Shown here: in pieces, positions 2,576 through 29,428 of the stretch
Position numbering within the stretch: position 1 is the stretch's first letter
Layout: the number at the start of each line of letters is the position of its first letter
Assembly: GCF_009707545.1 (NCBI RefSeq)
Contig: NZ_WLYK01000008.1
Location: 186,001 to 250,000 of the forward strand
Length of the DNA: 64,000 nt
Origin: Nakamurella alba
GTDB taxonomy: Bacteria; Actinomycetota; Actinomycetes; Mycobacteriales; Nakamurellaceae
Direction of reading: 5' to 3'
The notes under the pieces: generated by a model
Told to the model about the DNA's origin: nothing
Seen by the model: the letters and a program-made list of their open reading frames with translations, nothing else
The model's database searches: none
Translations under genes and position numbers: made by a program

Positions 2576-2582
2576 GAACACC

Positions 2583-2615
2583 GGCCCCGCCCGGACATGC
2601 CGTCCGGGCGGGGCC
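2583..2615 (+). terminator. Strong stem-loop between binding-protein and permease genes
   Basis: Perfect 14-bp stem (GGCCCCGCCCGGAC, 2583-2596, pairing with 2602-2615) and a 5-nt loop, starting 8 nt after the stop codon. No U-tract follows. Because the permease gene 68 nt downstream has no obvious promoter of its own, this is more likely a partial terminator or 3'-end stabiliser that raises binding-protein mRNA over permease mRNA. Confidence 0.7.
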
Positions 2616-2682
2616 GTCCCACCGGCACCACGCCGGTGACCAGAGCAGCACCTGACCCGCCACACACGATCGGGGCACGTCC

Positions 2683-4719
2683 GTGAACACCTACCTGCAG
2701 TTCGCGATCCTGGGCCTCGGCCTGGGCGCGATCTACATCGGCCTGGCCAACGGCCTGATCCTGTTCTACCGCGCCACCGGCATCATCAACTTCGCCCAGG
2801 GCGCCACCGCGATGTGGGGCGGCTACGTCTACGCGCAGCTGCGCACCGACGGCCGGCTGGTGTTCCCGATCTTCTCCGTCCAGCTGACGGACGGGCCGAT
2901 GGGCGGGATCCCGGCGCTGGTCATCGGTCTGGTGACCGCGGTGCTGCTGGCCCTGCTGATCCACGTGGCGGTGTTCCGGCCGGTGCGGCGGGCACCGGTG
3001 CTGGCCCAGGTCGTCGTGTCGGTGGCGCTGATGCTGTCGCTGCAGGCGCTGGTCATCATCCGGTTCGGGCCGGACACCATCCCGGTGGCGGCGCTGATCC
3101 CCAAGGGCAGCTGGACCGTGTTCGGCGTCCGGCTCTCCTCCGGCGAGATCATCATGGCCGTCATCATGATCGCGCTGTCCGCGTTGGTCTGGGCCTACCT
3201 GCGGTTCACCCGGGCCGGCCTGGCCACCCGGGCGGCGGCGGACAACGAGCGGGCCACCGTGCTGATGGGCTTCTCGCCGGACCGGCTGGCCGCCATCGCC
3301 CTGGTGCTGTCCGCGGCCCTGTCCACCATCGGTGTCATGCTGGCCAGCCCGCTCACCGGCATCAACCCGGCCAACTACACGCTCTACGTGGTGCCGGCGC
3401 TGGCGGTGATGCTGGTGGCCCGGATGACCTCGATCGTCTGGGCGACCGTGGCGGCCCTGGTGCTCGGCGCCGTGCAGTCGATCCTCAACCTGATGGTCAC
3501 CTTCCCCTGGTGGCCGAAGTGGGCCGCCGCCGGGATCGACCAGGTGGTGCCCTTCATCGTGGTGATGATCATCCTGCTGGCCTTCGGCAAGCGGCTGCCC
3601 TCCCGCGGCTCGCTGCGCACCATGCGGCTGCCGGACGTGGTGATCCCGCGGATCCGGGCGATCCCGGCCGCGGTGGTGGTCGTGGTGGTGCTGGTGCTGC
3701 TGATCGTCACCAACGGCGTCTACCGGTTCGGCATCACCTCGTCGATCATCATGATGCTGCTCGCCTTGTCCTACGTGGTGATCACCGGCTACCTGGGCCA
3801 GATCTCGCTGGCACAGGCAGCTTTCGCCGGGGCCGCCGGGTTCGCGCTGTCCAAGATCAGCACCGGTTGGTCGATCCCGTTCCCGATCGCGGTGCTGCTC
3901 TGCGCGGCCATCGCCTCGCTGCTCGGCATGATCGTCGCGCTGCCCGCCTTCCGGATCCGCGGGGCGCAGCTGGCCATCGTCACCCTCGCCGCGGCGCTGG
4001 CCATCGAGCGCTTCGTCTTCGGCAACTACAGCCTCACCCCGCCGCAGGGCAACCCGCTGGCCGATCCGCGGTTGTTCGGCCTGAACTTCGCCGTCCGGCA
4101 GGGCCGGGACCTGTCCCGGCTGCTGTTCTCGATCATGGTGCTGGTCATCGCGGTGCTGGTGGTGCTGGCCTTCATCCGGATCATGTCCGGGCACACCGGC
4201 CGGAACTTCCTGGCCGTGCGCGCCAACGAGCGGGCCGCCGCGTCCGCCGGCATCAACGTGCGGTTCACCAAGCTCATCGGCTTCGCGATGTCCGGGTTCA
4301 TCGCCGGCCTGGCCGGATGTCTCATCGGCTACAGCCACGGACAGCTGTCCGCGGAGTCGTTCTCGGTGTTCGTCGGCCTGCAGATCCTGGCCATCGCCTA
4401 CCTCGGCGGCATCACCAGCTGGGGCGGCGCGGCGGTGGCCGGCGTGCTGGCGCCGCTGGGCATCGTCTACACGATCGTCAACCAGATCTGGGACACCGGC
4501 GACGTCTACGCGCTGATCTCCGGACTCGCACTGATCCTCACCGCGATCCTCAACCCGAGCGGCATCGCCGGTGAGACGAACCGCCAGATCGCCTGGGTGA
4601 AGGAACGTCTCGCGCACCGGAAGGCGCCGAAGGAACCCGGCGCCCCACCGCCCACCGAACAGCCGCCGCCGGAGAAGGTCGCCGTGAACGGACCGAGGAG
4701 TGCCGATGTCAGCTCCTGA
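2683..4719 (+). CDS. Fused LivH-LivM permease of HAAT ABC importer
   Basis: 678-residue membrane protein joining two permeases that are usually separate. Residues 1 to about 300 are LivH-like (start MNTYLQFAILGLGLGAIYIGLANGL in two stretches, then the loop with EAA-like RAAADNERATVLMGFSPDR). Residues about 325-640 are LivM-like (GQISLAQAAFAGAAGFALS; RAVRANERAAASAGINV-type loop; GGITSWGGAAVAGV). A Pro-rich cytoplasmic tail ends the protein. The start is GTG. It is preceded by the stem-loop at 2583-2615 and its end overlaps the ATPase gene by 14 bp. The fusion is known in some actinobacterial HAAT systems. Confidence 0.9.
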   Translation: MNTYLQFAILGLGLGAIYIGLANGLILFYRATGIINFAQGATAMWGGYVYAQLRTDGRLVFPIFSVQLTDGPMGGIPALVIGLVTAVLLALLIHVAVFRPVRRAPVLAQVVVSVALMLSLQALVIIRFGPDTIPVAALIPKGSWTVFGVRLSSGEIIMAVIMIALSALVWAYLRFTRAGLATRAAADNERATVLMGFSPDRLAAIALVLSAALSTIGVMLASPLTGINPANYTLYVVPALAVMLVARMTSIVWATVAALVLGAVQSILNLMVTFPWWPKWAAAGIDQVVPFIVVMIILLAFGKRLPSRGSLRTMRLPDVVIPRIRAIPAAVVVVVVLVLLIVTNGVYRFGITSSIIMMLLALSYVVITGYLGQISLAQAAFAGAAGFALSKISTGWSIPFPIAVLLCAAIASLLGMIVALPAFRIRGAQLAIVTLAAALAIERFVFGNYSLTPPQGNPLADPRLFGLNFAVRQGRDLSRLLFSIMVLVIAVLVVLAFIRIMSGHTGRNFLAVRANERAAASAGINVRFTKLIGFAMSGFIAGLAGCLIGYSHGQLSAESFSVFVGLQILAIAYLGGITSWGGAAVAGVLAPLGIVYTIVNQIWDTGDVYALISGLALILTAILNPSGIAGETNRQIAWVKERLAHRKAPKEPGAPPPTEQPPPEKVAVNGPRSADVSS

Positions 4720-5515
4720 GCAGATCCCACCGGCCCAGCAGATCTCGCCGGCCCAGCAGCGGAAGACGCTGCGCGCCGTCGGCGTGGGCGTGCGGTACGG
4801 CGGCGTGGTCGCGAACGAGGACGTCTCGATCACCGTGGAGCCCGGCACCATCGTCGGGCTGATCGGCCCGAACGGCGCGGGCAAGACCACCTTCGTCGAT
4901 GCGCTGACCGGTTTCACCAAGTGCGTCGGCGAGATCCGGCTGGGCGACGAGCGGATCGACGGGCTGCCGCCGCACCGGCGGCGCCGGGCCGGGCTGTCCC
5001 GCACCTGGCAGTCCGGTGAGCTGTTCGCCAGCCTCACCGTGGCCGAGAACATCCTGGCCGCAGCACATCCCATGCGTCCGGCGATGATCTGGAAGGACCT
5101 GTTCACCAGGCACCACGACGACGCGGCGCGGGTCGAGCGGGTGCTGGACATGGTCGGGCTGCCGGGTGCCGGCGGGTTGAAGGCCGGCGACCTGGCGCTG
5201 GGTCAGCAGAAGTTGGTCGGCGTCGCCCGGGCCATCGCCGGCGGCTGCGACATCATGCTGCTCGACGAGCCGGCCGCGGGGCTGGACAGCGCGGAGAGCG
5301 TGCAGTTCGCCGAGCGGATCCGGGAGATCGTGAAGCTCGGTCCCGGGGCGCTGCTGATCGACCACGACGTGGCGATGATGCTCAGCGTCTGCGACACGAT
5401 CTACGTTCTCGAGTTCGGCCGGCTGATCTTCCAGGGCACCCCGGACGAGGCGCGCAACGACCCGGCGGTCATCGCCGCATATCTCGGCGTTCCGATGGAG
5501 GTGCAGGATGCCTGA
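4706..5515 (+). CDS. HAAT ABC importer ATP-binding protein, LivG type
   Basis: 269-residue ATPase energising the importer. Walker A GPNGAGKTT is near residue 55, the signature is LALGQQKL (the non-canonical LSxGQ form common in LivG), Walker B is DIMLLDEPAAGLD, and the H-loop is DHDVAMM. I chose ATG at 4706 because GAGGAG lies 5 nt before it; a GTG two codons upstream is possible. A Gln/Pro/Ala-rich leader (about 20 residues) precedes the ABC fold. It overlaps both neighbours (14 bp upstream, 8 bp downstream), so it is translationally coupled in the operon. Confidence 0.9.
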   Translation: MSAPEQIPPAQQISPAQQRKTLRAVGVGVRYGGVVANEDVSITVEPGTIVGLIGPNGAGKTTFVDALTGFTKCVGEIRLGDERIDGLPPHRRRRAGLSRTWQSGELFASLTVAENILAAAHPMRPAMIWKDLFTRHHDDAARVERVLDMVGLPGAGGLKAGDLALGQQKLVGVARAIAGGCDIMLLDEPAAGLDSAESVQFAERIREIVKLGPGALLIDHDVAMMLSVCDTIYVLEFGRLIFQGTPDEARNDPAVIAAYLGVPMEVQDA

Positions 5516-6260
5516 CGTACTGCTGGATCTCGACGCGGTGACCGCCGGCTACAACGGCGTCGCCGCGGTGCGGGACCTGACGCTGTCGGTGTCCGCCGGC
5601 GAGGTGGTCGCCATGCTCGGGCCCAACGGCGCCGGCAAGACCACCGCGCTGCTCACCATGGTCGGCCTGCTGGAGCCGATGGCGGGCAGCGTCACCGCGC
5701 TCGGCCGGCCGGTCCGCTCCCGGCACACCGACAAGCTGGTGCGGGCCGGGGTGCTGCTGGTGCCCGACGACCGTGGTGTCTTCGCCGATCTCACCGTCGG
5801 CGAGCACTTCCGGATGGCCCGCGCGAAGGCGGACAAGGTGCGGCTGGACTTCGTGCTCGACCGGTTCCCGGCGTTGCGCCCGCTGCGTGACCGCCGGGTC
5901 GGGCTGCTGTCCGGCGGCGAGCAGCAGATGCTGGCCATCGGCAAGGCCCTGCTGGCGGAGCCGAAGCTGCTGCTGATCGACGAGATGAGCCTGGGCCTGG
6001 CGCCGAAGATCGTGCAGGAGATGTTGCCCGGGATCCGCCGACTGGCCAAGGACGAGAACGTGGGCGTCGTGCTGGTGGAACAGCATGTGGAGCTGGCGCT
6101 CTCGGTCGCCGACCGGGCGATCGTGCTGAACCACGGTCGGATGGTGCTGGAGGGCGCGGCCCGCGACCTGCTGGCGGACCGGACGAAGGTGCAGCAGGCC
6201 TACTTCGGCGCCGGCGGCTACGCCGACGAGGAGCACGAGGCCCTGCCGGCCGAGGTCTGA
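5508..6260 (+). CDS. HAAT ABC importer ATP-binding protein, LivF type
   Basis: 250-residue second ATPase of the importer. Walker A is GPNGAGKTT, the signature LSGGEQQML and Walker B LLLIDEMSLGLAP; VLVEQHVELAL is the H-loop region. The start ATG overlaps the preceding gene by 8 bp. It is the last gene of operon 1 (1214-6260) and is followed by a stem-loop and a convergent SDR gene. LivG/LivF heterodimers drive one membrane domain pair, here supplied by the single fused permease. Confidence 0.9.
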   Translation: MPDVLLDLDAVTAGYNGVAAVRDLTLSVSAGEVVAMLGPNGAGKTTALLTMVGLLEPMAGSVTALGRPVRSRHTDKLVRAGVLLVPDDRGVFADLTVGEHFRMARAKADKVRLDFVLDRFPALRPLRDRRVGLLSGGEQQMLAIGKALLAEPKLLLIDEMSLGLAPKIVQEMLPGIRRLAKDENVGVVLVEQHVELALSVADRAIVLNHGRMVLEGAARDLLADRTKVQQAYFGAGGYADEEHEALPAEV

Positions 6261-6319: not shown

Positions 6320-7222
6320 TCAGCCCGACATGCCGTAGACCTGGCCGCCGGTGGCGAGCAGCACCTGGCCGGTGATCCAGTCGCTCCACGGCGTGCAGAG
6401 CAGGAAGACCGCGCCCGCGGCCTCCTGCGGCGAGGCCACCCGGCCGGACGGGATCGACTGTGCCGCCACGGTCATCACCTTCTCGGACAGGCCGAGCCGG
6501 ACGTCGCCGCCGGGCAGGTGCAGCACGTTGTCCGCATCGCGCGGGCGGGTCAGCCGGGTGTCGACCGAACCGAACCCGACGGCGTTGACGTTCACCAGGT
6601 GCGGGCCCCACTCCTTGGCCAGGCTCTTGGTCAGCCCCACCACTGCGGCCTTCGCCGCGGCGTAGTTCGCCTGGTAGGCGCTGCCCATCAGCGCGATCGA
6701 GGTGATCGAGACGACCTTGCGGAACACCTCCCGGCCGGCGGCGCGGTCCCGCTCGGCGGCCGCGATCAGGTGCGGCCCGGCGGCGCGGAGCACGGCGAAC
6801 GGTGCGGTGACATGGATGTCGAGCATCGCCTGCCAGGCCTCGTCCGACATCTCCACCAGCCGGGCGTTCAGGTTGTAGCCGGCGTTGTTCACCACGATGT
6901 CCAGCTCGCCGGCGCCGAGGTCCACCGCGGCAGCGACGATCTCGGCCGGGTGGCCGGGTGCGGTGAGGTCACCGGCGAGGACCGCGGTGGACCCGGCCGG
7001 CAGCGCTGCGGCGGTGGCGGCCAGGCCGTCGGCGTCCACATCGGCGAGCAGCACCCGGGCGCCGTGTGCGGTGAGCAGGCCGGCGGTGGCGGCGCCGATG
7101 CCGTGGGCGGCACCGGTGACCAGCGCGGTCCGGCCGGCCAGCAGATCCGATCCGGCCGAGATCACCCCGGGGCCCGTGCGTCCGTCGTGGATCGATTCCT
7201 GGTGCTGCTCGCCGGTCGTCAC
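6320..7222 (-). CDS. SDR-family NAD(P)-dependent oxidoreductase
   Basis: 300-residue short-chain dehydrogenase, probably oxidising or reducing a hydroxyacyl-CoA or ketone. The nucleotide-binding motif TGAAHGIGAAT is near residue 30, followed by NNAG (NNAGYNLNA), Ser in SITSIALMG and the catalytic YAAAK (NYAAAKAAVVGL). The N-terminus is about 20 residues longer than a minimal SDR. GTG at 7222 is the only in-frame start near the fold and has an AGGAGAGGA Shine-Dalgarno stretch upstream. It is transcribed divergently from the dehydrogenase operon at 7407. Confidence 0.85.
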   Translation of the reverse strand: MTTGEQHQESIHDGRTGPGVISAGSDLLAGRTALVTGAAHGIGAATAGLLTAHGARVLLADVDADGLAATAAALPAGSTAVLAGDLTAPGHPAEIVAAAVDLGAGELDIVVNNAGYNLNARLVEMSDEAWQAMLDIHVTAPFAVLRAAGPHLIAAAERDRAAGREVFRKVVSITSIALMGSAYQANYAAAKAAVVGLTKSLAKEWGPHLVNVNAVGFGSVDTRLTRPRDADNVLHLPGGDVRLGLSEKVMTVAAQSIPSGRVASPQEAAGAVFLLCTPWSDWITGQVLLATGGQVYGMSG

Positions 7223-7300
7223 GGGCGGTCGTCCTCTCCTCGGGCGCTCGCCCGATGATGGTCCGCCGCGGGGTGGTGGCGAGCCTCGGCGGCCGCACCC

Positions 7301-7406: not shown

Positions 7407-8516
7407 GTGGTCGTGGAGTTCGAATGGAGTGCCGAGCAGCTGGAGCTGCGCAGCACCGTGCGTGCGTTGCTGGACCGGCACGCGCCGGTGGCCGCGGCCC
7501 GGCGGCTGGCCGAGCACGGGCAGCGGCAGGACCCGGAGCTGTGGCGCGCGCTGGCGGAATCGGGTCTGACCGCTCTGGCGGTGCCCGAGGAGTACGGCGG
7601 CGCCGCCGGGCCCGACGGGGCCGGTGCGGTCGAGCTGTGCATCGTGGCCGAGGAGATGGGACGCCGGCTCACCGGCGGGCCCTACCTGTCCACCGCGGTG
7701 CTGGCGACTGCCGCCCTGCGCACCGCCGGCGACGACGACTGCAACGCCGAACACCTCCCGGCGATCGCCGACGGGACGTCGACCGCGACCCTGGCCGTGC
7801 GCACCGGCGGTACTCCCGCCCGGGTCCGCGACGGCCGGGTCACCGGCGACTGGACCGGCGTGCCGGACGGGGCGGATGCCGATCTGCTGCTGCTCGTCGC
7901 CGCCGAGCCGGACGGTGGCCCGTCGCTGTTCGCGGTGCGCCGGGACAACCCGGGGGTGACCACGTCCGCGCTCGAGGTGCTCGACGGCACCAAAGGTCTC
8001 GCTACCGTCACGCTCACCGACGTGCCGGCGCAGCGGGTCGGGACACCGGGATCGGCCGGGGCGGTGCTGGACGCGGTGGCCGTGACGGCGGCGCTGTTCC
8101 TCGCCGCCGAGCAGGCCGGTGCCTGCGCGCAGGTGGTGCAGGTGACCGCGGAGTACGCCCGCACCCGGCGCCAGTTCGGCCGGGCCGTCGGTCAGTTCCA
8201 GGGGGTCAAGCACCGGCTGGCCGACATGTCCGTGCGCAGCGAGAACGCCGTGTCCGCCGCGTTCCACGCCGCCTGGCAGCCACCCGGGAGCCCGGAACAG
8301 CGCACCGGTGCCGCGGTCGCCGCACGCTACGCCACCGTGGCCTTCTCCCAGCTCTCGCGGGACATGATCCAGCTGCACGGCGGCATCGGGTTCACCTGGG
8401 AGCACGACGCGCACCTGTACCTGCGCCGCGCCCGGGCCGACCAGCAGTTGCTGGCGGTGTACGGGCCGCCGGTGTCCGTGCTGGAGGACGCGATGCTGGT
8501 GGAGGCCGGGGCATGA
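7407..8516 (+). CDS. Acyl-CoA dehydrogenase, probable partner subunit
   Basis: 369-residue acyl-CoA dehydrogenase fold protein (FadE type). The central segment VTAEYARTRRQFGRAVGQFQGVKHRLADM and the C-terminal IQLHGGIGFTWEHDAHLYLRRA-type region are clear. It lacks the C-terminal GTxEIxR element of its neighbour. With the 4-bp overlap to the next dehydrogenase this matches the actinobacterial alpha2beta2 heteromeric dehydrogenases of steroid side-chain oxidation, where two FadE proteins share the flavin site (inference). GTG at 7413 (MEFEWSAEQ) is an equally good start, with GGCGAGG 5 nt before it. Confidence 0.88.
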   Translation: MVVEFEWSAEQLELRSTVRALLDRHAPVAAARRLAEHGQRQDPELWRALAESGLTALAVPEEYGGAAGPDGAGAVELCIVAEEMGRRLTGGPYLSTAVLATAALRTAGDDDCNAEHLPAIADGTSTATLAVRTGGTPARVRDGRVTGDWTGVPDGADADLLLLVAAEPDGGPSLFAVRRDNPGVTTSALEVLDGTKGLATVTLTDVPAQRVGTPGSAGAVLDAVAVTAALFLAAEQAGACAQVVQVTAEYARTRRQFGRAVGQFQGVKHRLADMSVRSENAVSAAFHAAWQPPGSPEQRTGAAVAARYATVAFSQLSRDMIQLHGGIGFTWEHDAHLYLRRARADQQLLAVYGPPVSVLEDAMLVEAGA

Positions 8517-9751
8517 CGACAACAGCGACGCCGGTGACCTCACCCGGCACGGTCCCGACCGCCGCACAGGTCCGGGAGTTCGTGGAAGCGCACCTTCCCG
8601 ACGAGTGGCGACGCACCCTCGACGCAGGCGATGCCGCCGCGCTCGAGCGGCTGCGGCTGGACCCGGAGCACGGGCGCGCCTGGTACGAGGTGCTCGGCCG
8701 GGCCGGGCTCGCCACCCCCACCTGGCCGGCGGAGTACCACGGGCTCGGCCTGACGCCGGCCGATGCCGCCGGGATTCGCGCCGCACTGGCCGATCTCGGG
8801 GTCGGCCGGCCGGCGGCCGACGAGGTCGGGATCGACATGGGCGGGCCGACGGTGCTCGAGTGGGGCACCGACGAGCAGAAGGCCCGCTGGCTGCCGCCGC
8901 TGGCACGGGGCGCGCAGCGCTGGTGCCAGCTGTTCAGCGAACCGGGTGCCGGGTCCGATCTGGCATCGCTGGCCACCCGGGCGGTGCCGCAGCCCGACGG
9001 CGGGTGGCTGGTCACCGGGCAGAAGGTGTGGAACTCCTACGCCCACATCGCCGATCTCGGGATGCTGCTGGCCCGCACCGATCCCGGCCGGCCCAAGCAC
9101 CACGGCATCAGCTTCTTCGTCGTCGACATGCACGCCCCCGGCGTCGAGGTGCGGCCGCTGCGGCAGATCACCGGCGACAGCGAGTTCAACGAGGTGTTCC
9201 TCACCGACGTGCGGCTGCCACCGGACGCCCTGCTCGGGCCGCTGCACGCCGGCTGGCGGGTCGCCATCTCCACCCTGATGTCCGAGCGCAGCAGCATCTC
9301 CGGTCGCCCCTCCATCGGACCGGGCCGGGCGACCCGGTTGGTCCGGCGGGCGCTGGCCACCGGGGCCTGGCAGGACCCGCTGCTGCGGGACCGGCTGGTG
9401 CAGCTGTTCGTCGAGGAGCGTGCCCTGCAGACCACCACCATCCGGGCCTCCGTCGAACTCGCCCACCAGCTGCCCGGCGCCGAGGGTTCCGTCCGCAAAC
9501 TGCGCAATGCCGAGCTGGACGAGACCGCCGGGCTGCTCGCCGCCGACATCGACCCGGACGCGGTCACCGCCTGGGACCCGTCCGGGCCGCGGCCGTCCGC
9601 CGTCGACGACTTCCTGCAGATGAAGAAGATCAGCATCGCCGGCGGCACCTCGGAGATCCAGCGCACCATCATCGGCGAGCGGATGCTCGGCCTGCCCAAG
9701 GATCCCGATCCGGACCGGGACCTGCCCTTCGACGCCAGGACGGTCCGATGA
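8513..9751 (+). CDS. Acyl-CoA dehydrogenase, probable catalytic partner
   Basis: 412-residue acyl-CoA dehydrogenase. Visible are the mid-domain CQLFSEPGAGSDLASLATRA, the flavin-site region GQKVWNSYAHIAD, and the C-terminal SIAGGTSEIQRTIIGERMLGLP. The ATG overlaps the stop of the upstream dehydrogenase (ATGA), and the downstream dehydrogenase overlaps it the same way, so three FadE-like genes are translationally coupled. It probably forms a heteromeric enzyme with the 7407 product that introduces the alpha,beta double bond; the substrate is unknown. The preceding frame stays open far upstream, but that sequence is antisense-like noise inside the 7407 gene. Confidence 0.9.
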   Translation: MTTTATPVTSPGTVPTAAQVREFVEAHLPDEWRRTLDAGDAAALERLRLDPEHGRAWYEVLGRAGLATPTWPAEYHGLGLTPADAAGIRAALADLGVGRPAADEVGIDMGGPTVLEWGTDEQKARWLPPLARGAQRWCQLFSEPGAGSDLASLATRAVPQPDGGWLVTGQKVWNSYAHIADLGMLLARTDPGRPKHHGISFFVVDMHAPGVEVRPLRQITGDSEFNEVFLTDVRLPPDALLGPLHAGWRVAISTLMSERSSISGRPSIGPGRATRLVRRALATGAWQDPLLRDRLVQLFVEERALQTTTIRASVELAHQLPGAEGSVRKLRNAELDETAGLLAADIDPDAVTAWDPSGPRPSAVDDFLQMKKISIAGGTSEIQRTIIGERMLGLPKDPDPDRDLPFDARTVR

Positions 9752-10938
9752 GCACCGCGCACCCGGCCCCTGCGACCGCACACCCCGAGATCCTCGACAG
9801 GATGCGGGACTTCATCGACGGCGCGGTGATCCCGGCGGAGCCGGTGCTGCGGGCCGGTGGACCGGAGTCGGCGGAGGTGATGACCGGCCTGCGCGCGCAG
9901 GCCAAGGAACGCGGACTCTGGGCGTTGGGTCACCCGGCCGAGATCGGCGGCGGCGGACTGCCCTTCCTGGACTACGCGCTGGTCAACGAGATCATCGGGC
10001 GCAGCTGGTACGGCCAGGCGGCGACCGGCACGATCTCCACCCAGGACTCGATCATGCTGCACCTGGACGGCACCGCGGAGCAGAAGCGGCGCTGGCTGGC
10101 ACCGATGGTGACCGGCGACGTGCTGCCCTCTGTCGCGATGACCGAGCCCGAGGTCGCCGGCTCCGACCCGACGCTGATCCGCAGCACCGGCGAGCTCGTC
10201 GACGGCGAGTGGGTCGTCAACGCGCACAAGTGGTTCACCACCGGCGCCAGCCGGGCCGGTTTCACCACGGTGTTCGTCCGCACGGAGGGGCCGGAAGCGG
10301 CGCCGCACCGGGCGATCTCGGCGATCCTGGTGCCGATGGACACCCCAGGGGTGCGCATCGACCGGGTGCTGCACACCATGGGCAGCACCGCTGGCGACCA
10401 CTGCGAGATCTCGATGACCGACGTGCGGGTGCCGGCCGACAGCCTGGTCGGCGCCCGCGGCGAGGGGTTCGTCGTCGGGCAGCGCAGGCTCGGGCCGGGC
10501 CGGATCTTCCACGCGATGCGCTGGCTGGGCCAGGCGCAGCGCGCCTTCGAGTTGATGTGCGAGCGGGCGAACCAGCGGTTCGCGCACGGCTCGCTGCTGT
10601 CGGAGAAGGGCCAGATCCAGCGCATGGTCGCCGATTCCGCCGCCGAGATCCAGGCGGCCCGGCTGCTGACCCTGGACGCCGGGCGGGCCTACGACCTGGA
10701 CGGCCGCGCCACCGTGCAGATCAGCCTGGTGAAGTTCTGGGGCGCGAAGGTGTTGCACGACGTGGTGGACCGGGCCATCCAGGTGTTCGGGGCGATGGGG
10801 GTCACCGAGGACACCCCGCTCGAGCAGATGTACCGGGAGGCGCGGTACGCGCGCATCTACGACGGCCCGGACGAGGTGCACCGGATGGTGGTGGCGCGCC
10901 GGCTGCTGGCCGACCCGTCGCGGGTGCCCTGGCGATGA
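9748..10938 (+). CDS. ACAD11/LvaC-like acyl-CoA dehydrogenase family protein
   Basis: 396-residue protein of the ACAD10/ACAD11 branch. The C-terminus carries [19 protein letters not shown], the DGPDEVH signature of that branch, in place of the GTxEI element of ordinary dehydrogenases. MTEPEVAGSDPTLIRST and AHKWFTTGA are the usual flavin and substrate regions. Gene order (this gene, APH kinase, DUF6285-like protein; overlaps of 4 bp each) parallels Pseudomonas lvaC/lvaA/lvaB, where the dehydrogenase-like enzyme handles a 4-phosphorylated acyl-CoA. By that analogy it would eliminate phosphate to give an enoyl-CoA. The fold is certain; the special reaction is inferred. Confidence 0.88.
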   Translation: MSTAHPAPATAHPEILDRMRDFIDGAVIPAEPVLRAGGPESAEVMTGLRAQAKERGLWALGHPAEIGGGGLPFLDYALVNEIIGRSWYGQAATGTISTQDSIMLHLDGTAEQKRRWLAPMVTGDVLPSVAMTEPEVAGSDPTLIRSTGELVDGEWVVNAHKWFTTGASRAGFTTVFVRTEGPEAAPHRAISAILVPMDTPGVRIDRVLHTMGSTAGDHCEISMTDVRVPADSLVGARGEGFVVGQRRLGPGRIFHAMRWLGQAQRAFELMCERANQRFAHGSLLSEKGQIQRMVADSAAEIQAARLLTLDAGRAYDLDGRATVQISLVKFWGAKVLHDVVDRAIQVFGAMGVTEDTPLEQMYREARYARIYDGPDEVHRMVVARRLLADPSRVPWR

Positions 10939-11945
10939 CCGCACCGCCGGAGATCCGGGTCGACGAGGAGACGGCCCGCAAGGTGCTGCTGCTGGCCGGT
11001 CTCGCGGACGAGGACGACCGGGTCGGGGTGCGCCGGCTGACCGCGGGGGCGTCCCGGGCGATGTTCCTGCTGCAGGTCCGGCCGGAGCACGCGCCGCCGG
11101 ACGGCCCGGCCGACCGGTACGTGCTGCGGCTGCAGGGCGACACCCTCGGCGCCGCCCACGGTCTGCGGCTGGAGGCCGGTCTGCTGGAGCTGGCCCGGTC
11201 GGCCGGGGTGCCGGCCCCGCGGGTGCGCACGGTGCAGGACGACGGGGCGCTGCTCGGCCTGCCGTACCTGCTGATGGACCACGTCGCCGGCGACACGCTG
11301 CCCAAGCGCATCCTGTCCGCGCCGGGGCTGGCCGCCGCCCGCGGCGTGCTGCCGGCCCAGCTGGGGGTGGCCCTCGGCGCCCTGCACGGGGTCCCGGTGG
11401 AGTCCACGGTCGCCCGGCTGGACGGGCTCGCCGTCGGCGCCGACGAGATCGCCGTCTGGCGCGACATCCTCGATTCCTACGACCAGCCGCACCCGGCCTT
11501 CGAGCTGGGCATGCGCTGGTTGGAGGAGCACCGGCCCGCGCCGCTGCCGCCGGTGCTGCTGCACGGCGACTTCCGGGTCGGCAACATCATCGTCGACCCG
11601 TCGGGTCTGGCCGCCGTGCTCGATTGGGAGCTGGCCCACATCGGCGATCCGCGTGAGGATCTCGGCTGGCTGTGCGCGCCGAGCTGGCGGTTCGGCAGCC
11701 CGCTGCCGGTCGGCGGGGTGGGTGACTACGAGCAGCTGCTCACCCCGTACCGGGAGGCCACCGGGCTGGACGTCACCGCGCCGGACCTGCACTGGTTCGA
11801 GGTGCTCGGCACCCTGCGCTGGGGCGTGCTCTGCGTCGGCCAGACCATGCGGCACCTGCGGTCCACCACCCGCTCGGTGGAGCTGGCGGCACTGGGCCGC
11901 CGGGTGTGCGAGATCGAGTGGGACCTGTTGGAGGCCATCACATGA
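10935..11945 (+). CDS. APH-fold phosphotransferase (LvaA / ACAD10-11 kinase-like)
   Basis: 336-residue kinase-fold protein of the aminoglycoside phosphotransferase family. The catalytic loop is LLHGDFRVGN (near residue 210), followed by the metal-binding AVLDWELAHIGDPREDLGW. The N-terminal lobe has RLTAGASRAMFLLQV. This subgroup sits next to acyl-CoA dehydrogenases and is fused to one in mammalian ACAD10/ACAD11; in Pseudomonas LvaA phosphorylates the 4-hydroxyl of 4-hydroxyvaleryl-CoA. A role on a 4-hydroxyacyl-CoA is therefore more likely than antibiotic resistance (inference from family and context). ATG overlaps the upstream stop; the next gene overlaps by 4 bp. Confidence 0.88.
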   Translation: MTAPPEIRVDEETARKVLLLAGLADEDDRVGVRRLTAGASRAMFLLQVRPEHAPPDGPADRYVLRLQGDTLGAAHGLRLEAGLLELARSAGVPAPRVRTVQDDGALLGLPYLLMDHVAGDTLPKRILSAPGLAAARGVLPAQLGVALGALHGVPVESTVARLDGLAVGADEIAVWRDILDSYDQPHPAFELGMRWLEEHRPAPLPPVLLHGDFRVGNIIVDPSGLAAVLDWELAHIGDPREDLGWLCAPSWRFGSPLPVGGVGDYEQLLTPYREATGLDVTAPDLHWFEVLGTLRWGVLCVGQTMRHLRSTTRSVELAALGRRVCEIEWDLLEAIT

Positions 11946-12328
11946 GCACTGCCGACACCGGACCGGAACCGGCCCGCGCACCCAACGACGTGCCGTCGGC
12001 CGGTGATCTGCTGGAGGCGGTCCAGGAGTTCCTCACCGGCACCCTGCTGCCCGCGGCCGGCGACGACACCCGTTTCTACATCAGGGTGTCGGCGAACGTG
12101 CTCGACGTCGTCCGGCGCGAGTTGGCCGGAGCGGACGAGCGCAGTGCCCGGCACGCGCGGGCGCTGGCCGGGCTCGGGGTGGCGGACGAGCGGGAGCTGG
12201 CCGCGGCCATCCGCAGCGGCGCCCTCGCGTACGACGACCCGGCCGTGCGGGCGGTGGTCACCGCCACCGTGCGGGAGAAGCTGCTGGTGGCCAAGCCCGG
12301 CCACCCGGGTGCGGGCCTGCCGTCCTGA
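11942..12328 (+). CDS. Small DUF6285-like protein, LvaB candidate
   Basis: 128-residue soluble protein with no membrane segment. The core reads SAGDLLEAVQEFLTGTLLP...DDTRFYIRVSANVLDVVRREL and ends in ALAYDDPAVRAVVTATVREKLLVAKP. I recognise this pattern as the DUF6285 family, regularly found directly after an APH-like kinase and acyl-CoA dehydrogenases; I believe the levulinate-pathway protein LvaB, needed with LvaA for phosphorylation of 4-hydroxyacyl-CoA, is of this type, but that identity is from memory. It closes the operon 7407-12328; its ATG overlaps the kinase stop by 4 bp, which suggests equimolar complex formation. Confidence 0.8.
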   Translation: MSTADTGPEPARAPNDVPSAGDLLEAVQEFLTGTLLPAAGDDTRFYIRVSANVLDVVRRELAGADERSARHARALAGLGVADERELAAAIRSGALAYDDPAVRAVVTATVREKLLVAKPGHPGAGLPS

Positions 12329-12371: not shown

Positions 12372-14018
12372 TCAGGGACTGTCGTGCCGGGCCTCGACGC
12401 CGTGCGCCCGCGCGTCCCACACCCGGTCGGTCAGCCCGGCGGCGCGCAGCTCGCCCTTCTGCACCTTGGCCGTCGGGGTCCGCGGCAGTTCGTCGTACAC
12501 CTCGATGTAGCGCGGCACCATGAAGTACGGCAACCGACGGCGCAGCTCGGCGTGCAGGCTCTCCGCGGTCCACTCCGATCCCGGGGTGCCGGCGTCCGGC
12601 GCGGCGAGTTCGACGCAGGCCAGCACCTCCTGCTCGTAGTCGGCGCTGCGCACCCCGACCACGCCGACGCCGCTGATCCCGGGGATGCGCAGGATCTCCG
12701 ACTCGACCTCGACCGAGGAGATGTTCTCGCCACGCCGCCGGATCACGTCCGAGCTGCGGTCCACGAAGAAGAACTGGCCGGTGGCGTCCTGCCGGACCAT
12801 GTCCCCGAGGTGGAGCCAGAGTCCGCGCCACTTCTGCAGTGTCGCGTCCGGGGCGTGGTGGTAGGCGATCATCACCGAGTGCGGCATCCGCGGCCGGATC
12901 GCCAGCTCGCCGACCTCGCCCGGCGCCACCTCGATGTCGTCGGCGTCGACCACCCGTGCCTCGAAGTCGTCCCGGATCCAGCCGCACCCGCCCGGCACCG
13001 TCTGCCCGTACTGCGCCACCACCGGGGCGGAGGACTCGGTCTGGCCGAGCCCACAGGCGATCTCGACCCCGAACCGGGCCCGGAAGGCCGCCTCCTCCTT
13101 GATCACCGGCGCCATCAGCACCTTGCGCAGCGTGGTGTCCGCATCGTCCGGGCGCACCGGCTGCGCCAGCAGGAAGGTCACCATGGACGCCATCATCGTC
13201 ACCTGGGTGGCGCAGAACCGGCGCACCTCGTCCAGGAAGCCGGAGGCGCTGAACCGCTCGACCAGGGCGCAGCTGCCACCCACCATCAGCGGTGCCAGCA
13301 CCCCCGTCCACTGGCCGGCGATGTGGAACTGGGGCAGCGGCTCCAGCACCACGTCGTCGCCGTCCACCAGCGGCCAGTGGTGCGGATCGACGTAGCTGAA
13401 CGGCAGCCCGTGCGGCTGCAGCACCCCCTTCGACGGGCCGGTGGTCCCGGAGGTGTACATGATCGCGTAGGGGTCCCAGGGCCGCACCGGATCGTCGGCG
13501 TCGGCGGGCTCGGCGGCATCGGACACCAGCAAGGACGTCTCGAAGTCCAGGACCTCGAACCGGCTGTGCCGCAGTGCCTCCGGGGCCGCGCCGCGGACCA
13601 CCACCCGGCGCAGCGCCGGGATCTCCGCCTCGATGTCCAGCAGCCGGGTGGCGTACCGGTCCTCGATCACGATGGTGTCGGCGTCGGAGTTGTTCACCAC
13701 GTGGGCCAGCAACGAACCGCGGTAGGCGGTGTTCACCTGCGCCTGCACCCGGCCGAAGCAGGCGGCGCCGAGCCAGGTCAGCACGTGGTCGAGGTGGTTG
13801 TCCATCATCAGCAGGCAGGTCTGCCGGCGGGCGATCCCCAGGGCGGCCAGCGCGGCGCCACGGGCCCGGGCGGCGTCCCGCAGCCCGGCATAGGTCAGCG
13901 TGGTGACCGCGTCGCGCAGTGCCGGCCGGTCCGCCCAGGCCCGGGCGCCGTCGTCCAGCAGGGCCGGCACCGTCCGGCGTTCCATCGGGATCTGCGGAGC
14001 CCTGGGCAACACGCTCAT
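12372..14018 (-). CDS. Acyl-CoA ligase (AMP-binding, CaiC-like)
   Basis: 548-residue acyl-CoA synthetase. The P-loop is MYTSGTTGPSKGVL, followed by the hinge LHLGDMVRQDATGQFFFVDR and RRGENISSVEVE, and the C-terminal catalytic Lys region PRTPTAKVQKGELR. The overall look is closest to crotonobetaine/carnitine-CoA ligase-like enzymes, which take small or branched acids. It faces the kinase operon tail-to-tail (43-bp gap) and is divergent from importer operon 2. ATG at 14018 is preferred because it gives a normal N-terminus (MERRTVPALL just inside); ATG 13985 or GTG 14087 cannot be excluded, as no strong Shine-Dalgarno separates them. It would be the LvaE-like activating enzyme of the kinase module. 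Confidence 0.88.
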   Translation of the reverse strand: MSVLPRAPQIPMERRTVPALLDDGARAWADRPALRDAVTTLTYAGLRDAARARGAALAALGIARRQTCLLMMDNHLDHVLTWLGAACFGRVQAQVNTAYRGSLLAHVVNNSDADTIVIEDRYATRLLDIEAEIPALRRVVVRGAAPEALRHSRFEVLDFETSLLVSDAAEPADADDPVRPWDPYAIMYTSGTTGPSKGVLQPHGLPFSYVDPHHWPLVDGDDVVLEPLPQFHIAGQWTGVLAPLMVGGSCALVERFSASGFLDEVRRFCATQVTMMASMVTFLLAQPVRPDDADTTLRKVLMAPVIKEEAAFRARFGVEIACGLGQTESSAPVVAQYGQTVPGGCGWIRDDFEARVVDADDIEVAPGEVGELAIRPRMPHSVMIAYHHAPDATLQKWRGLWLHLGDMVRQDATGQFFFVDRSSDVIRRRGENISSVEVESEILRIPGISGVGVVGVRSADYEQEVLACVELAAPDAGTPGSEWTAESLHAELRRRLPYFMVPRYIEVYDELPRTPTAKVQKGELRAAGLTDRVWDARAHGVEARHDSP

Positions 14019-14351
14019 GACCGGCAGGCTCGTCCCGGTCCGGAGCTGCCGCAACACCGTTGTCGTGGGGTGTTTGTGGGGGCGCACAGAGCGGCTGCGG
14101 GTCTCCGGTGCCGCGGCGGGCGGAAGTCCCTAGCGTCACCAGCACGTCGCTGCCGTGGGTGAGCCGTCCGAGGGCCGGTGTCCGGTGTCCGCAGCGTCGT
14201 GCGCCATCGATCGGTCCGCCCTCGTGCCGATCGGCACCGGTCCCACCGGTGCCCGCCGGCCCCGGCCGCGCGGCCGAGAACTGATGCAACAGGACAGAGC
14301 GGTCCGGCACAACAGGGCAGGCGAGGAAGCGGCCCGGGAAAGAGACTCGAG
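14019..14351 (+). promoter_or_regulatory. Divergent intergenic region before importer operon 2
   Basis: 332 bp without a gene. It holds a GTTGTCG half-site (14059-14065) near the ligase start, a -10-like TAGCGT (14131-14136) preceded by GGAAGTC, short direct repeats of CCGGTGT near 14180, and a perfect 9-bp inverted repeat with 3-nt spacer, GGCACCGGT-CCC-ACCGGTGCC (14233-14253). If transcription starts near 14143 the inverted repeat lies in the leader and could be an attenuator hairpin or an operator. No riboswitch was recognised. Confidence 0.35.
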
Positions 14352-15542
14352 ATGCGGAAACGGTCGACGGCAACGGTGGCGGCGATCCTGACGGTGGGCG
14401 CGCTGGTCGCGGCCGGCTGCGGCTCCTCGGAGACGCCGTCCGGCGGTGGCACCGGCAGCGGCTCCGGTGGCCTCCCGGCCACCATCACCATCGGCGCCCC
14501 GCTGGACACCTCCGGCAGCGTCGGCGTGGCCGTGGTGGGCAGCGACGAGCAGAAGGGCGAGGAACTCGCCGTCGAGGAGATCAACAGCAGCGGCTTCCTC
14601 GGCAGCACGAAGATCGACCTGCGGGTGGTGGACACCCAGGCCGCGAAGGAACTCGCGGTGCAGGCGATCATCTCGATGACCAAGCAGGACCCCGTGGACG
14701 CCATCGTCGGGTTCACCCTGTCACCGTCGTTCCTGGCGGCCGGCCCGAACGCGCAGGCCGCCGGCATGCCGACGCTCGCGGTCGGGCTGTCCGGCGACGG
14801 CGTCACCGAGGTCGGCGACTACATCTTCCGCACCTACCCGGCGCTGTCCGAGCTGTACGCGAAGACCGATCCGGAGATCCTGAAGGCGCTGGGCGCCAAG
14901 AAGATCGCGTACCTGCACACCAGCGACAGCAGCAACATCGTCGGTCAGTACGAGTTCCGCAAGAAGGCGAACGAGGCGGCCGGCTACGAGACGGTGGCGG
15001 ACGAGACGGTCACCTCGGACGCGATCTCGTACCAGGCGCAGCTGACGACGATCAAGAACGCGAACCCGGACGTGCTGTTCGTGAACATCAACGGCGGGCA
15101 GGACCCGACCTTCCTGGCCCAGTACGAGCAGGCCGGGCTGAACCTGCAGATGATGACCGACCTCGGCTTCCAGAACCCCGAGGTGGTCAAGCTGCCGGCC
15201 GCCCAGTGCGCGATCTTCGCCACCACCTGGGACGTCTCGTCCACGGCCGGGAAGAACAAGCAGTTCGTCGATGCGTGGACGAAGAAGTACGGCACCCCGC
15301 CGAGCCAGTACGCGGCGTGGGGCTACGAGGGCATCTACCTGATGGCGACCGCCTTCAAGAACGCCGGCACCACCGACAAGGCCGCCGTGCGCGACGCGCT
15401 CGCGAACCTGAAGGGCTTCGAGGGCGTGCTCGGCACGTACGACATGAACGAGAAGCGGACACCGAGCCAGGGCGGCATCCTGCTGCAGATCCAGGGCGGC
15501 AAGACCGTGGCGTGGACGCCGGAGACGAAGTGCGCGCTCTGA
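14352..15542 (+). CDS. ABC transporter substrate-binding lipoprotein (Peripla_BP_6 type), importer 2
   Basis: 396-residue lipoprotein receptor. A signal peptide (MRKRST, then a hydrophobic core) ends in the lipobox LVAAGCGS with Cys at about residue 23. A short Gly/Ser linker leads into ATITIGAPLDTSGSVGVAVVGSDEQKG, the start of the type I binding fold. It heads a five-gene importer operon (14352-18878) with two permeases and two ATPases. Its sequence is clearly different from the receptor at 1214, so the two importers probably take different ligands. ATG 14352 is chosen because it places the signal peptide at the N-terminus; the Shine-Dalgarno (AAAGAGA) is weak. Confidence 0.9.
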   Translation: MRKRSTATVAAILTVGALVAAGCGSSETPSGGGTGSGSGGLPATITIGAPLDTSGSVGVAVVGSDEQKGEELAVEEINSSGFLGSTKIDLRVVDTQAAKELAVQAIISMTKQDPVDAIVGFTLSPSFLAAGPNAQAAGMPTLAVGLSGDGVTEVGDYIFRTYPALSELYAKTDPEILKALGAKKIAYLHTSDSSNIVGQYEFRKKANEAAGYETVADETVTSDAISYQAQLTTIKNANPDVLFVNINGGQDPTFLAQYEQAGLNLQMMTDLGFQNPEVVKLPAAQCAIFATTWDVSSTAGKNKQFVDAWTKKYGTPPSQYAAWGYEGIYLMATAFKNAGTTDKAAVRDALANLKGFEGVLGTYDMNEKRTPSQGGILLQIQGGKTVAWTPETKCAL

Positions 15543-15594
15543 TGTCACCCTCCAGCGCGGTTCACCGCGATGCCGGCCGGGTCGGGCGCGTCCG

Positions 15595-16482
15595 GTGAAC
15601 GGGTTCCTGCAGCAGCTCGTCAACGGCATCGCCCTGGGCAGCGTCTACGCGCTGCTGGCGCTGGGCGTGACGCTGGTCTGGGGCGTCCTCAACGTGCTGA
15701 ACTTCGCCCACGCGCAGTTCATCACCTGGGGTGCGTTCGGGGCCTGGTTCGCGCTGCAGCAGGGCCTGCCCGGCATCCTCGCCGTGGTGGTCGGGGTCGC
15801 CGTCGGCGCGCTGCTCGCGGTGCTGCTGCAGCTGACGGTGATCTCGGCCCTGCAACGGCGCGCCTCCAGCGATGAGTTCTCCTACGTGGTGGTCACCATC
15901 GGCACCGGCCTCGTGCTGGAGACGGTGGTCAAGACGCTGTCCGACTCGCAGATCAAGGCATTCCCGGTGGATGCCCTGCCCTCCGGCAGCATCTCGCTCG
16001 GCCCGGTCGACCTGCCGAACCTGCAGCTGGTGGTCCTCGGCACCACCGTGGTGATCATGGTGCTGCTGGCGGTGTGGCTTCGCCGCACCCGGCTGGGCCG
16101 GGAACTGCGGGCGGTGGCCTACTCCCGGGAGATCTCCTCGTTGCTCGGGGTGAACACGCAGAAGGTGTTCGTCACCGCGTTCGCGGTGTCCGGCGCGCTG
16201 GCCGCGCTGGCCGGCACCTTCGTGGCGGCGCAGACCGCGACCGTCTCGTACTCCAGCGGCGGCGTGCTGCTCACCCTCACCTTCGCGGCCGTCGTCGTCG
16301 GCGGCATGGGCTCGATACCGGGCGCGCTGGCCGGCGGCCTGCTGCTCGGGCTCGGCCAGGTGCTGCTCGGCAGCTACGTCAGCTCCGCCCTCGGCGACGG
16401 CTTCGCCTTCGTGCTGATGGCGATCGTGCTGATCGCCCGGCCGACCGGGCTCTTCGGACAACAGGTGGTGGCCCGTGCTTGA
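15595..16482 (+). CDS. HAAT importer permease, LivH type
   Basis: 295-residue membrane protein with about eight hydrophobic segments. It begins MNGFLQQLVNGIALGSVYA, the standard LivH start, and has the cytoplasmic coupling loop RELRAVAYSREISSLLGVN and the VVVGGMGSIPGALAGGLLLG segment. GTG start. It lies 52 bp after the binding-protein gene and overlaps livM by 8 bp. It forms the translocation pore with the next gene product. Confidence 0.92.
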   Translation: MNGFLQQLVNGIALGSVYALLALGVTLVWGVLNVLNFAHAQFITWGAFGAWFALQQGLPGILAVVVGVAVGALLAVLLQLTVISALQRRASSDEFSYVVVTIGTGLVLETVVKTLSDSQIKAFPVDALPSGSISLGPVDLPNLQLVVLGTTVVIMVLLAVWLRRTRLGRELRAVAYSREISSLLGVNTQKVFVTAFAVSGALAALAGTFVAAQTATVSYSSGGVLLTLTFAAVVVGGMGSIPGALAGGLLLGLGQVLLGSYVSSALGDGFAFVLMAIVLIARPTGLFGQQVVARA

Positions 16483-17389
16483 GTGGTTCTCCCGCAACGA
16501 GTTCTTCATCGACATCACGCTGATCTCCACGCTGCTGGTGATGAGCTTCTTCGTGGTCTTCCAGGCCGGCATCTTCTGCCTCGGCTCGGTCGGCTTCATG
16601 GCGGTCGGTGCCTACACCTCGGCCCTGCTCACCATGCACACCGGTATGCCGGTGCTGCTCGGGGTGATCTGCGGGGCGCTGGCCGGTGCGCTGACCGGGT
16701 TCGTGTTCGGGCTGATGGTGCTCAGACTCGAGGGGATCTACCTCGCGCTGGCCACCTTCGCGCTGGCCGAGGCGATCATCGTGCTGATCGAGACCGTCGG
16801 CTTCACCGGCGGTGTCGAGGGTCTGGTGGGCTACCCGACCGAGGTCACCACCTGGTACGTCATCCCGGCGCTGGTGCTGATGGGCGTGGTGCTGCAGCTG
16901 GTGCAGCGCTCGCACAACGGCCGGGCGATCCACGCGCTGCGGGTGGACCCGGTGATCGCCCGTGGGCTGGGCATCCGGGTCCGCGCCTTCAAGCTGATGG
17001 CGCTGGCCGGGGCCGGCGTGCTGGCCGGGCTGGCCGGCGCGCTCAACGCGCACGAGGTCGGGGTGATCAGCCCGGACCAGTACAACTTCACCATCCTGGT
17101 GCTGGCCCTCACCTATGCCGTCGTCGGCGGTGTCACCCACTTCTCCGGCGCGCTCATCGCCGCGCTCGTCTTCGGCCTGTTCCACGAGCTGCTCCGCGGT
17201 GCCGGGACCACCGCCGAGAACATCGGCTACGGCATCGTTCTGGTGCTGCTGATGCTCATCGCGCCGCGCGGCCTGGGCGATCCACGGCTGGCCCGGCTGC
17301 TGCGCCGGATCCTGCCCGGCGGGCGCCGGCGGGCCGTGCCGGCCTCCGCCACGTCCACCGACGCCGAGCTCGAGGACGCGCCCCGATGA
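16475..17389 (+). CDS. HAAT importer permease, LivM type
   Basis: 304-residue inner membrane protein. GSVGFMAVGAYTSAL early on, the coupling loop HALRVDPVIARGLGIRVRAFKLM, and the C-terminal AVVGGVTHFSGALIAALVFG identify LivM. GTG start inside the livH end (8-bp overlap); the stop overlaps the ATPase start (ATGA). Its cytoplasmic tail after the last segment is Arg/Ala-rich. It pairs with the 15595 product. Confidence 0.92.
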   Translation: MLEWFSRNEFFIDITLISTLLVMSFFVVFQAGIFCLGSVGFMAVGAYTSALLTMHTGMPVLLGVICGALAGALTGFVFGLMVLRLEGIYLALATFALAEAIIVLIETVGFTGGVEGLVGYPTEVTTWYVIPALVLMGVVLQLVQRSHNGRAIHALRVDPVIARGLGIRVRAFKLMALAGAGVLAGLAGALNAHEVGVISPDQYNFTILVLALTYAVVGGVTHFSGALIAALVFGLFHELLRGAGTTAENIGYGIVLVLLMLIAPRGLGDPRLARLLRRILPGGRRRAVPASATSTDAELEDAPR

Positions 17390-18173
17390 CCACCCGCACG
17401 CTGCTGGTCGAGGACGTCGGCAAGCACTTCCAGGGCGTCGCCGCACTCACCGACGTCTCCCTCGACGTCCGCCCGGGCGAGGTGCTCGGGCTGGTCGGGC
17501 CGAACGGCGCCGGCAAGACCACGCTGGTCAACGTGATCAGCGGGTACATGCCGCCGGCGAGCGGGCGGGTCCGGCTGGGCGAGGAGGTGCTGACCGGGCT
17601 GCGGATGGAGTCGGTGGCCCGGCGCGGCGTCGCCCGCACCTACCAGCATCTCCGGCTGATCGACGAGATGTCGGTGCTGGACAACGTCCTGGTCGGCCGG
17701 CACCAGCTGTTCCGGGTCAAACCGTGGCGCATCGGGGCCCGCCGTCGCGACGCCCGGGCGCAGGAGCAGGCCTGCCGGGAGCTGCTCGCCCGGCTGGAGC
17801 TGGACGCGGTCGCCGACCTGCCGGTGGAGAGCCTGTCCTACGGGATGCGCCGGCGGGTGGAGATCGCCCGGACCCTGGCGATGGAGCCCGAGGTGCTGCT
17901 GCTGGACGAGCCGACGGCCGGGATGACCCGGACCGATGCGCACGAGATCGGTGAGCTGGTCCGGCGGACCAGCCGGGAGGGGATCGCGGTGCTGCTGATC
18001 GAGCACAACGTCGGCCTGGTGACCGCGGTCTGCGACCGGATCGCCGTGCTGGACTGGGGCAAGGTGGTGCGAATCGGCACCCCGGACGAGGTCTGGTCCG
18101 ATCCCGCGGTGCGGGCGGCCTATCTGGGCGCCGAGACCTCCGACGCCGCCGAGGATCCCGCGGAGGTGCAGCC

Positions 18174-18177
<4 letters not shown>
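17386..18177 (+). CDS. HAAT importer ATP-binding protein, LivG type
   Basis: 263-residue ATPase. Walker A GPNGAGKTT lies near residue 40; the signature is degenerate, LSYGMRRRVEIARTLA, as often in LivG; Walker B is VLLLDEPTAGMT; the H-loop is IEHNVGLV. Start ATG overlaps livM by 4 bp and the stop overlaps the LivF gene (GTGA). It is part of importer 2. Confidence 0.92.

Positions 18178-18878
<701 letters not shown>

Positions 18879-26160: not shown

Positions 26161-26164
<4 letters not shown>
25133..26164 (-). CDS. APH-fold phosphotransferase, second copy
   Basis: 343-residue kinase-like protein. GGRSNLTYKISD is the nucleotide-binding lobe start, LVHGDYRVGNVLLS the catalytic loop and AVLDWELATLGD the metal site. 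It belongs to the same acyl-CoA-dehydrogenase-associated APH subgroup as the 10935 product but is clearly diverged from it. It is the last gene of a minus-strand operon beginning with an ACAD11-like dehydrogenase (29428), with overlaps of 4 bp to the LLM gene. The neighbours suggest phosphorylation of a hydroxyacyl-CoA; no DUF6285 partner is present here. Confidence 0.87.

Positions 26165-29428
<3,264 letters not shown>

Follow-up and report, generated by a model that had tools for sequence, protein, structure and literature searches.

The stretch of Nakamurella alba DNA described here (the window, 64,000 nucleotides at G000:C8:186001-250000, G000 being the 6.05 Mb genome that contains it; G+C about 72%) carries, at positions 9748-12328 of the plus strand, three adjacent genes for an acyl-CoA dehydrogenase (ACAD; P0003), an APH-fold kinase (P0004) and a small DUF6285 protein (P0005). 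We consider it probable that this trio constitutes an LvaABC-type dehydroxylation module, housed in a variant operon with two further dehydrogenase-like genes, FadEa and FadEb, the reactions and the position of the hydroxyl group being proposed by analogy. Five open plus-strand genes span 7407-12328, each starting 4 bp inside the preceding one, namely FadEa (7407-8516), FadEb (8513-9751), P0003 (9748-10938), P0004 (10935-11945) and P0005 (11942-12328). Pfam places three of the products in Acyl-CoA_dh and the remaining two in APH (E 2e-33) and DUF6285, respectively, and for the last three genes (starts at 9748, 10935 and 11942) the ATGA overlap was read directly in the sequence; by these overlaps, P0003-P0004-P0005 are predicted to be co-transcribed as part of a single operon. 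A preliminary description of this DNA had listed a dehydrogenase with a DGPDEVH signature, an APH kinase and a DUF6285-like protein overlapping by 4 bp, an arrangement that Pfam, the motifs and the ATGA overlaps bear out.

P0003 finds its best PDB sequence match in mouse ACAD11 (8v3u, E 1.5e-72). In ACAD11, R626, H634 and R637 are described as contacting the phosphate, R631 as conserved in the family and D753 as the catalytic base (PMC12440821), and all five of these named residues (R626/R631/H634/R637/D753) align with identical ones in P0003 (R247/R252/H255/R258/D372). The first four form an R-x4-R-x2-H-x2-R helix, the phosphate-binding motif, which in P0003 reads RLGPGRIFHAMR (residues 247-258, codons at 10486-10521, plus strand), and the catalytic Glu is replaced by an Asp within DGPDEVH (residues 372-378, codons at 10861-10881, plus strand), with D372 as the predicted catalytic residue. 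Residue comparison within the operon finds these five phosphate-chemistry residues absent from FadEa and FadEb. Congruent with the motif, the 28 motif-bearing ACADs in a tree of 68 rows make up one side of a branch (SH-like approximate likelihood ratio test, SH-aLRT, 98), a side that includes the Pseudomonas LvaC-type proteins and ACAD11, and where P0003 stands beside the protein of locus L035 and others from the same taxonomic order. Its nearest named matches are from Nonomuraea (59% identity) and Rhodococcus (56%), and the true phosphate-motif helix of the ACADs at loci L036 and L041 is likewise RLGPGRIFHAMR. Genome-wide, the motif is carried by 5 of the 23 ACADs matched by P0003, while a sixth, on contig C17, has Tyr for the motif His. 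Thus, P0003 is predicted to be a dehydrogenase of the LvaC/ACAD11 clade that eliminates phosphate.

The kinase P0004 carries HGDFRVGN and VLDWE motifs and keeps H210-x-D212, N217 and D230. Among PDB sequences ACAD11 is its best match (E 3.8e-17), with 25-hydroxysteroid kinase (25-HSK) at E 2.9e-9. In a tree of 86 selected kinase rows, all 57 DUF6285-linked kinases, P0004 among them, fall in one clade (SH-aLRT 96); these originate from Pseudomonas, Thermus, Alpha- and Betaproteobacteria and genomes of the same phylum as G000, and the ACAD11 kinase lies on the opposite side together with 17 DUF6285-free kinases encoded near motif-bearing ACADs. A fuller tree under a simpler model, to which 37 rows from loci already fetched were added (15 DUF6285-linked and 22 DUF6285-free, a kinase being called linked if its fetched locus also yielded DUF6285), again recovered 72 of 72 linked kinases on one side of a branch (SH-aLRT 98). 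Both trees are quick ones, with SH-aLRT as sole support measure and a midpoint root. Placement of P0004 among the DUF6285-free and ACAD11 kinases was rejected, costing 550 log units (approximately unbiased, AU, test p 2.75e-46), and P0004 thus groups with the LvaA-type kinases rather than with the ACAD11 kinase, as far as sequence relationships tell. An AlphaFold2 model shows the APH fold (predicted local distance difference test, pLDDT, 87.9), with 3dxp, 25-HSK and Rv3168 as best Foldseek matches.

P0005 belongs to PF19802 (DUF6285; E 1.1e-20, 74.6 bits against a cut-off of 28.1), a family with this single occurrence in the whole genome. LvaB has been described as a 12-kDa protein that interacts with LvaA in pulldowns and is required for growth of P. 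putida on levulinate (PMC6692424). In P. guariconensis, the 118-residue protein encoded between the kinase and LvaC is a DUF6285 member (Pfam E 4.8e-24), and PF19802 is also found in the protein that follows the kinase in P. citronellolis, Stutzerimonas and Thermus. As DUF6285 occupies the lvaB position in Stutzerimonas and P. guariconensis, and in view of the published description of LvaB, we equate LvaB with the DUF6285 family, an assignment made by position in lva-type operons and not from the KT2440 sequence. The region of P. citronellolis LA18T analysed in the report on P. putida is described there as having no lvaB homologue (PMC6692424); in strain LMG 18378 of the same species, a DUF6285 gene lies directly 3' of the kinase (L086:6890-7267, E 1.3e-17). 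We note also that, in the Stutzerimonas and Thermus operons of lva-like type, the gene directly after DUF6285 encodes a histidine phosphatase (L073:7289-8050, L077:8051-8704, L026:7345-8004).

At 12 loci from the same taxonomic order (L030, L031, L036, L037, L038, L039, L041, L042, L043, L045, L046 and L047), kinase and DUF6285 seemingly share one open frame of about 445-473 residues, and Pfam confirmed both domains in each of the eight fused-looking proteins that were checked, lending support to a physical kinase/DUF6285 pair. AlphaFold2 predicts P0005 to be a four-helix protein (pLDDT 89). A Foldseek search of this model against the PDB produced 15 matches at E values of up to 10, not one of which reached 0.001, and VIA-align on the candidates gave a top Z of 6.7 over residues 19-76, a value that means little for a helical bundle. 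A sequence search of the PDB with DUF6285 gave no match, and the family name was not met in the literature searched. LvaB is thus assigned to a named family, and a testable idea of its role is given below.

Taken together, the sequence-level comparisons that the preliminary description had put forward turned out in its favor. The dehydrogenase possesses the full set of named phosphate-handling residues when set against LvaC and ACAD11, the kinase joins the LvaA type and not the ACAD11 kinase, and the small protein, for which lack of kinship to LvaB had been set as a refutation, shares its Pfam family with the protein at the lvaB position. We propose that kinase and DUF6285 protein would act as a pair, phosphorylating with ATP a hydroxyl group, most likely at C4, of an acyl-CoA. 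P0003 would then accept the phosphorylated acyl-CoA and eliminate phosphate through its R/R/H/R cluster, the catalytic Asp and the flavin, without net reduction, to yield a 2-enoyl-CoA that could be passed to beta-oxidation. FadEa and FadEb would carry out a normal dehydrogenation, either on this substrate or on a shortened form of it.

The latter two genes probably encode a heteromeric-type acyl-CoA dehydrogenase pair, as judged from sequence. The best NCBIfam model is IpdE2 for FadEa (171 bits against a cut-off of 450) and pimC_large for FadEb (193 against 624), and identification of the pair as IpdE1/IpdE2 or PimC/PimD was rejected, the scores lying under the equivalog cut-offs. FadEa, an IpdE2/PimD-like small subunit by its Pfam and NCBIfam matches, has no C-terminal catalytic Glu motif and sits in a clade of small subunits in the ACAD tree; FadEb, PimC-large-like by the same two resources, is its probable partner, and a FadEa-like gene adjoins the FadEb homologue in 15 of 18 loci. 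Just upstream of the window (L002:61-5521) there is another FadEa/FadEb-like pair, along with an HpaB C-terminal protein, an SDR, a hydratase and a UGSC-family protein.

The five-gene arrangement is found again in G044, a genome from another family of the same order, in identical order and with 4-bp overlaps, the identities being 53% for FadEa, 61% for FadEb, 76% for the ACAD, 66% for the kinase and 61% for DUF6285. This supports the earlier suggestion that the two extra FadE genes mark a larger version of the pathway. In G674, about 5 kb separate the trio and the FadE pair. Kinase-DUF6285 genes close to FadEa/FadEb-like pairs are present at L030, L031, L038, L042, L258 and L262 and on plasmids of Variovorax, Sulfitobacter and Massilia, with a motif-bearing third ACAD in one of these nine loci, that of Massilia. 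Searches of 16 other genomes of the genus detected neither DUF6285 nor a FadEb match at the cut-off, suggesting that the operon is sporadic, having been gained or lost.

Adjacent to the operon on the minus strand are an SDR oxidoreductase (about 6320-7225, start approximate; Pfam), divergent from it and absent from the preliminary description, which is possibly an LvaD-like or later-step enzyme, and an AMP-binding acyl-CoA ligase (12372-14087; Pfam), a possible substrate activator. The ligase had been noted as a neighbor; its adjacency holds, whereas membership of the operon does not, the gene being convergent with it. The two importers reported to surround the operon are indeed present on the plus strand, both of the LIV type, one upstream at 1214-6260 (binding protein, double permease and two ATPases) and the second at 14178-18878, and an importer with a similar binding protein is also located near the FadEa-FadEb pair at L263 and L246. 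Beyond the operon, the window encodes CoA ligases, hydratases, thiolases, a carboxyltransferase, an MFS transporter and a TetR regulator, pointing to a large acyl-CoA catabolic island. As to the substrate, our guess is a bulky, cyclic or branched acid taken up by the flanking importers.

The island harbors a second module that the preliminary description had not recorded. KIN2, another APH kinase (25133-26164, minus strand), falls on the ACAD11/DUF6285-free side of the kinase tree, and ACAD4, a second ACAD10/11-type dehydrogenase (28223-29428, minus strand), is 56% identical to the ACAD domain of mouse ACAD11 and groups with ACAD11 in the tree (SH-aLRT 90). Between them, on the same strand, are a luciferase-like and a nitronate-monooxygenase-type gene, and no DUF6285. 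The pair represents the same enzyme classes as the trio, but differs from it in having an ACAD11-side kinase with both of the arginines discussed below, no DUF6285, and two intervening gene types. Where the trio had been described as split ACAD10/11 or LvaABC, the LvaABC alternative stands for the kinase half, and the more ACAD11-like pair is instead the one at 25133-29428. A DUF6285-linked kinase and an ACAD11-type kinase free of DUF6285 accordingly occur together in one genomic island, so that the two solutions may be compared in one organism. A third motif-bearing ACAD (43128-44435, minus strand) has the helix RLGGGRMHHAMR and LADGPTEVH, with no kinase beside it in a kinase model search of the window, and an additional APH-like kinase match is seen in L002 at about 10388.

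The two kinase groups hint at what LvaB may do. The CoA of ACAD11 has been modelled against two kinase arginines (PMC12440821), of which we took the published R86 as the Arg adjoining the alphaC Glu (chain position 83 as used here, offset 3), while the numbering of R176, and of D220, is offset by 1 from our chain positions. In the first alignment, the Arg before the alphaC Glu was found in 17 of 17 DUF6285-free kinases near motif-bearing ACADs versus 10 of 57 that are linked to DUF6285; for R176 the counts were 15 of 17 and 3 of 57. The extended set gave 39 of 39 versus 10 of 72 for the former and 35 of 39 versus 4 of 72 for the latter. P0004 has Leu and Asp at the two positions, and KIN2 has Arg at both. 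Conversely, across 70 DUF6285 domains three basic positions are largely retained, with Arg at R59 in 69, Arg at R91 in 67 and Lys or Arg at K113 in 59. As the arginines have been largely given up in DUF6285-linked kinases and DUF6285 conserves three basic residues, we tentatively put forward that DUF6285 (LvaB) may be a CoA-docking subunit of LvaA kinases that took over the arginine role, a proposal that we hold to be somewhat less probable than its negation. The two kinase groups are sisters or nearly so, and the arginine pattern may therefore reflect one evolutionary change. If correct, the proposal would explain the requirement for lvaB in P. putida, the kinase-DUF6285 fusions and the lack of an evident catalytic motif in DUF6285. 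It would also fit a report that Burkholderia orthologues can replace ACAD10 domains, the relevant part of which does not mention LvaB (PMC11342911).

Several observations weigh against assigning the trio to LvaABC-type dehydroxylation. Both reactions and the hydroxyl position are derived by homology, the 4-position by analogy. P0004 has neither of the arginines thought to hold CoA in ACAD11, and ACAD11 is not among the best 50 Foldseek matches listed for its model. No LvaF-, LvaG- or LvaR-type families were encountered among the 27 Pfam-scanned proteins (window 4-30449; the genome elsewhere was not searched), and the SDR and the ligase are only generic matches to their Stutzerimonas counterparts, at 34% and 29% identity. 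A FadEb homologue of at least 55% identity occurs in 7 of 397 genomes of the order, G000 included (four candidates were scored per genome), and in only three of these seven (G000, G044 and G674) does the trio lie within about 10 kb, the contig of G354 being short. At the 20 order-level DUF6285 loci besides the window, a motif-bearing ACAD is beside the pair in six, an ITEG-class ACAD without the phosphate residues in nine and neither class in five. A phylum-wide search yielded 23 further DUF6285 loci, of which 20 were fetched and 19 counted, the DUF6285 match of L180 falling below the model threshold. Here, a motif-bearing ACAD was present in the stretch at four (more than 6 kb away in L172) and the ITEG class at two, while no ACAD match was obtained at 13 (L161-L165, L167-L170, L173, L174, L176 and L177), with at most about 9 kb inspected on each side and some contigs ending sooner. 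The kinase-DUF6285 pair is hence used in more than one setting, and in view of these varied settings kinase and DUF6285 alone are no proof of phosphate elimination; it is P0003 that carries the argument for it in this operon. The ITEG-class enzymes beside kinase-DUF6285 (L029-L034, L042-L044, L074, L166 and L175) form a distinct ACAD class with an NRIRQAAS helix and an ITEG-type catalytic Glu, perhaps catalyzing another reaction on the phosphorylated acyl-CoA.

The surroundings also permit other explanations. With the ligase as LvaE, the SDR as LvaD and the trio as LvaABC, the locus could encode a complete levulinate pathway in which the other two FadE genes are incidental, and all five functional classes LvaA-E are found inside 8 kb. 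We deem this unlikely, since the genes for ligase and SDR lie on the strand opposite to the operon and their products show the low identities given above, since DUF485, acetate-symporter and sigma54-activator families were not called among the 27 scanned window proteins, and since the FadE pair is tied into the operon by 4-bp overlaps and accompanies the trio in G044 as well. In P. putida, lvaE is reported to be dispensable (PMC6692424), and the ligase therefore says little for or against. On the same points, levulinate is not favored as the specific substrate. Still less likely, in our estimate, is that P0004 resembles 25-HSK in function and that its target is a free alcohol, tertiary or secondary, carried by a ring or an isoprenoid side chain, with P0003 as the phosphate lyase. 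When the P0004 model is searched with Foldseek, 25-HSK structures take ranks 2 to 4, the lyase that belongs to the 25-HSK pathway was described as unknown in 2021 (PMC8449060), and the best models for FadEa and FadEb, although far under their cut-offs, are steroid-ring and pimeloyl-CoA dehydrogenase subunits. However, P0004 is closer by sequence to ACAD11 than to 25-HSK, P0003 is by family an enzyme of CoA esters, and ACAD10/11 are reported not to phosphorylate the free acid (PMC12440821).

It could moreover be asked whether the operon serves ordinary beta-oxidation, with an APH kinase of antibiotic or sugar type and a small protein residing in it by chance. The APH family is indeed broad, and a search of the genome with P0004 gives 13 matches at E up to 1e-6, P0004 itself counted. 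Such a coincidence is nonetheless highly improbable, given that the gene order is kept in another family, that kinase-DUF6285 fusions exist, that the neighboring ACAD has the phosphate-binding residues, and that the kinase falls in the LvaA clade. An LvaABC-type module in an operon with FadEa and FadEb therefore remains our favored interpretation.

Among known systems, 25-HSK is similar in being an APH-fold kinase that activates a hydroxyl for elimination (PMC8449060), but it acts on the tertiary alcohol of a free steroid and P0004 is more distant from it in sequence. Mammalian ACAD10/ACAD11 are closer: P0003 is 42% identical to the ACAD domain of mouse ACAD11 and keeps the five named residues. 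Unlike in ACAD10/ACAD11, however, P0003 and P0004 are separate genes rather than one chain, and P0004 derives from another kinase clade, without the two CoA-contacting arginines of ACAD11. A DUF6285 partner is furthermore present here, a name that goes unmentioned in the relevant parts of two papers on ACAD10/11 (PMC12440821, PMC11342911). The plasmid operon of Stutzerimonas, with the order kinase-DUF6285-histidine phosphatase-ACAD-SDR-acyl-CoA synthetase-DUF485-cation-acetate symporter, matches the lva genes as these are described (PMC9399607, PMC6692424), and its proteins share 39% (kinase), 31% (DUF6285) and 39% (ACAD) identity with the trio. As in LvaABC of Pseudomonas levulinate catabolism (PMC6692424, PMC9399607, PMC9628823), a separate kinase, a DUF6285 partner and an ACAD predicted to eliminate phosphate are united in one operon. 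The present operon differs in its order, C-A-B rather than A-B-C, in the inclusion of FadEa/FadEb, in the nearby LIV-type importers, in the location of SDR and ligase outside the operon, and in its actinomycete host. Removal of a hydroxyl by way of phosphorylation has been described in Proteobacteria and mammals; the present case would extend this route to an actinomycete operon equipped with a heteromeric-type dehydrogenase pair.

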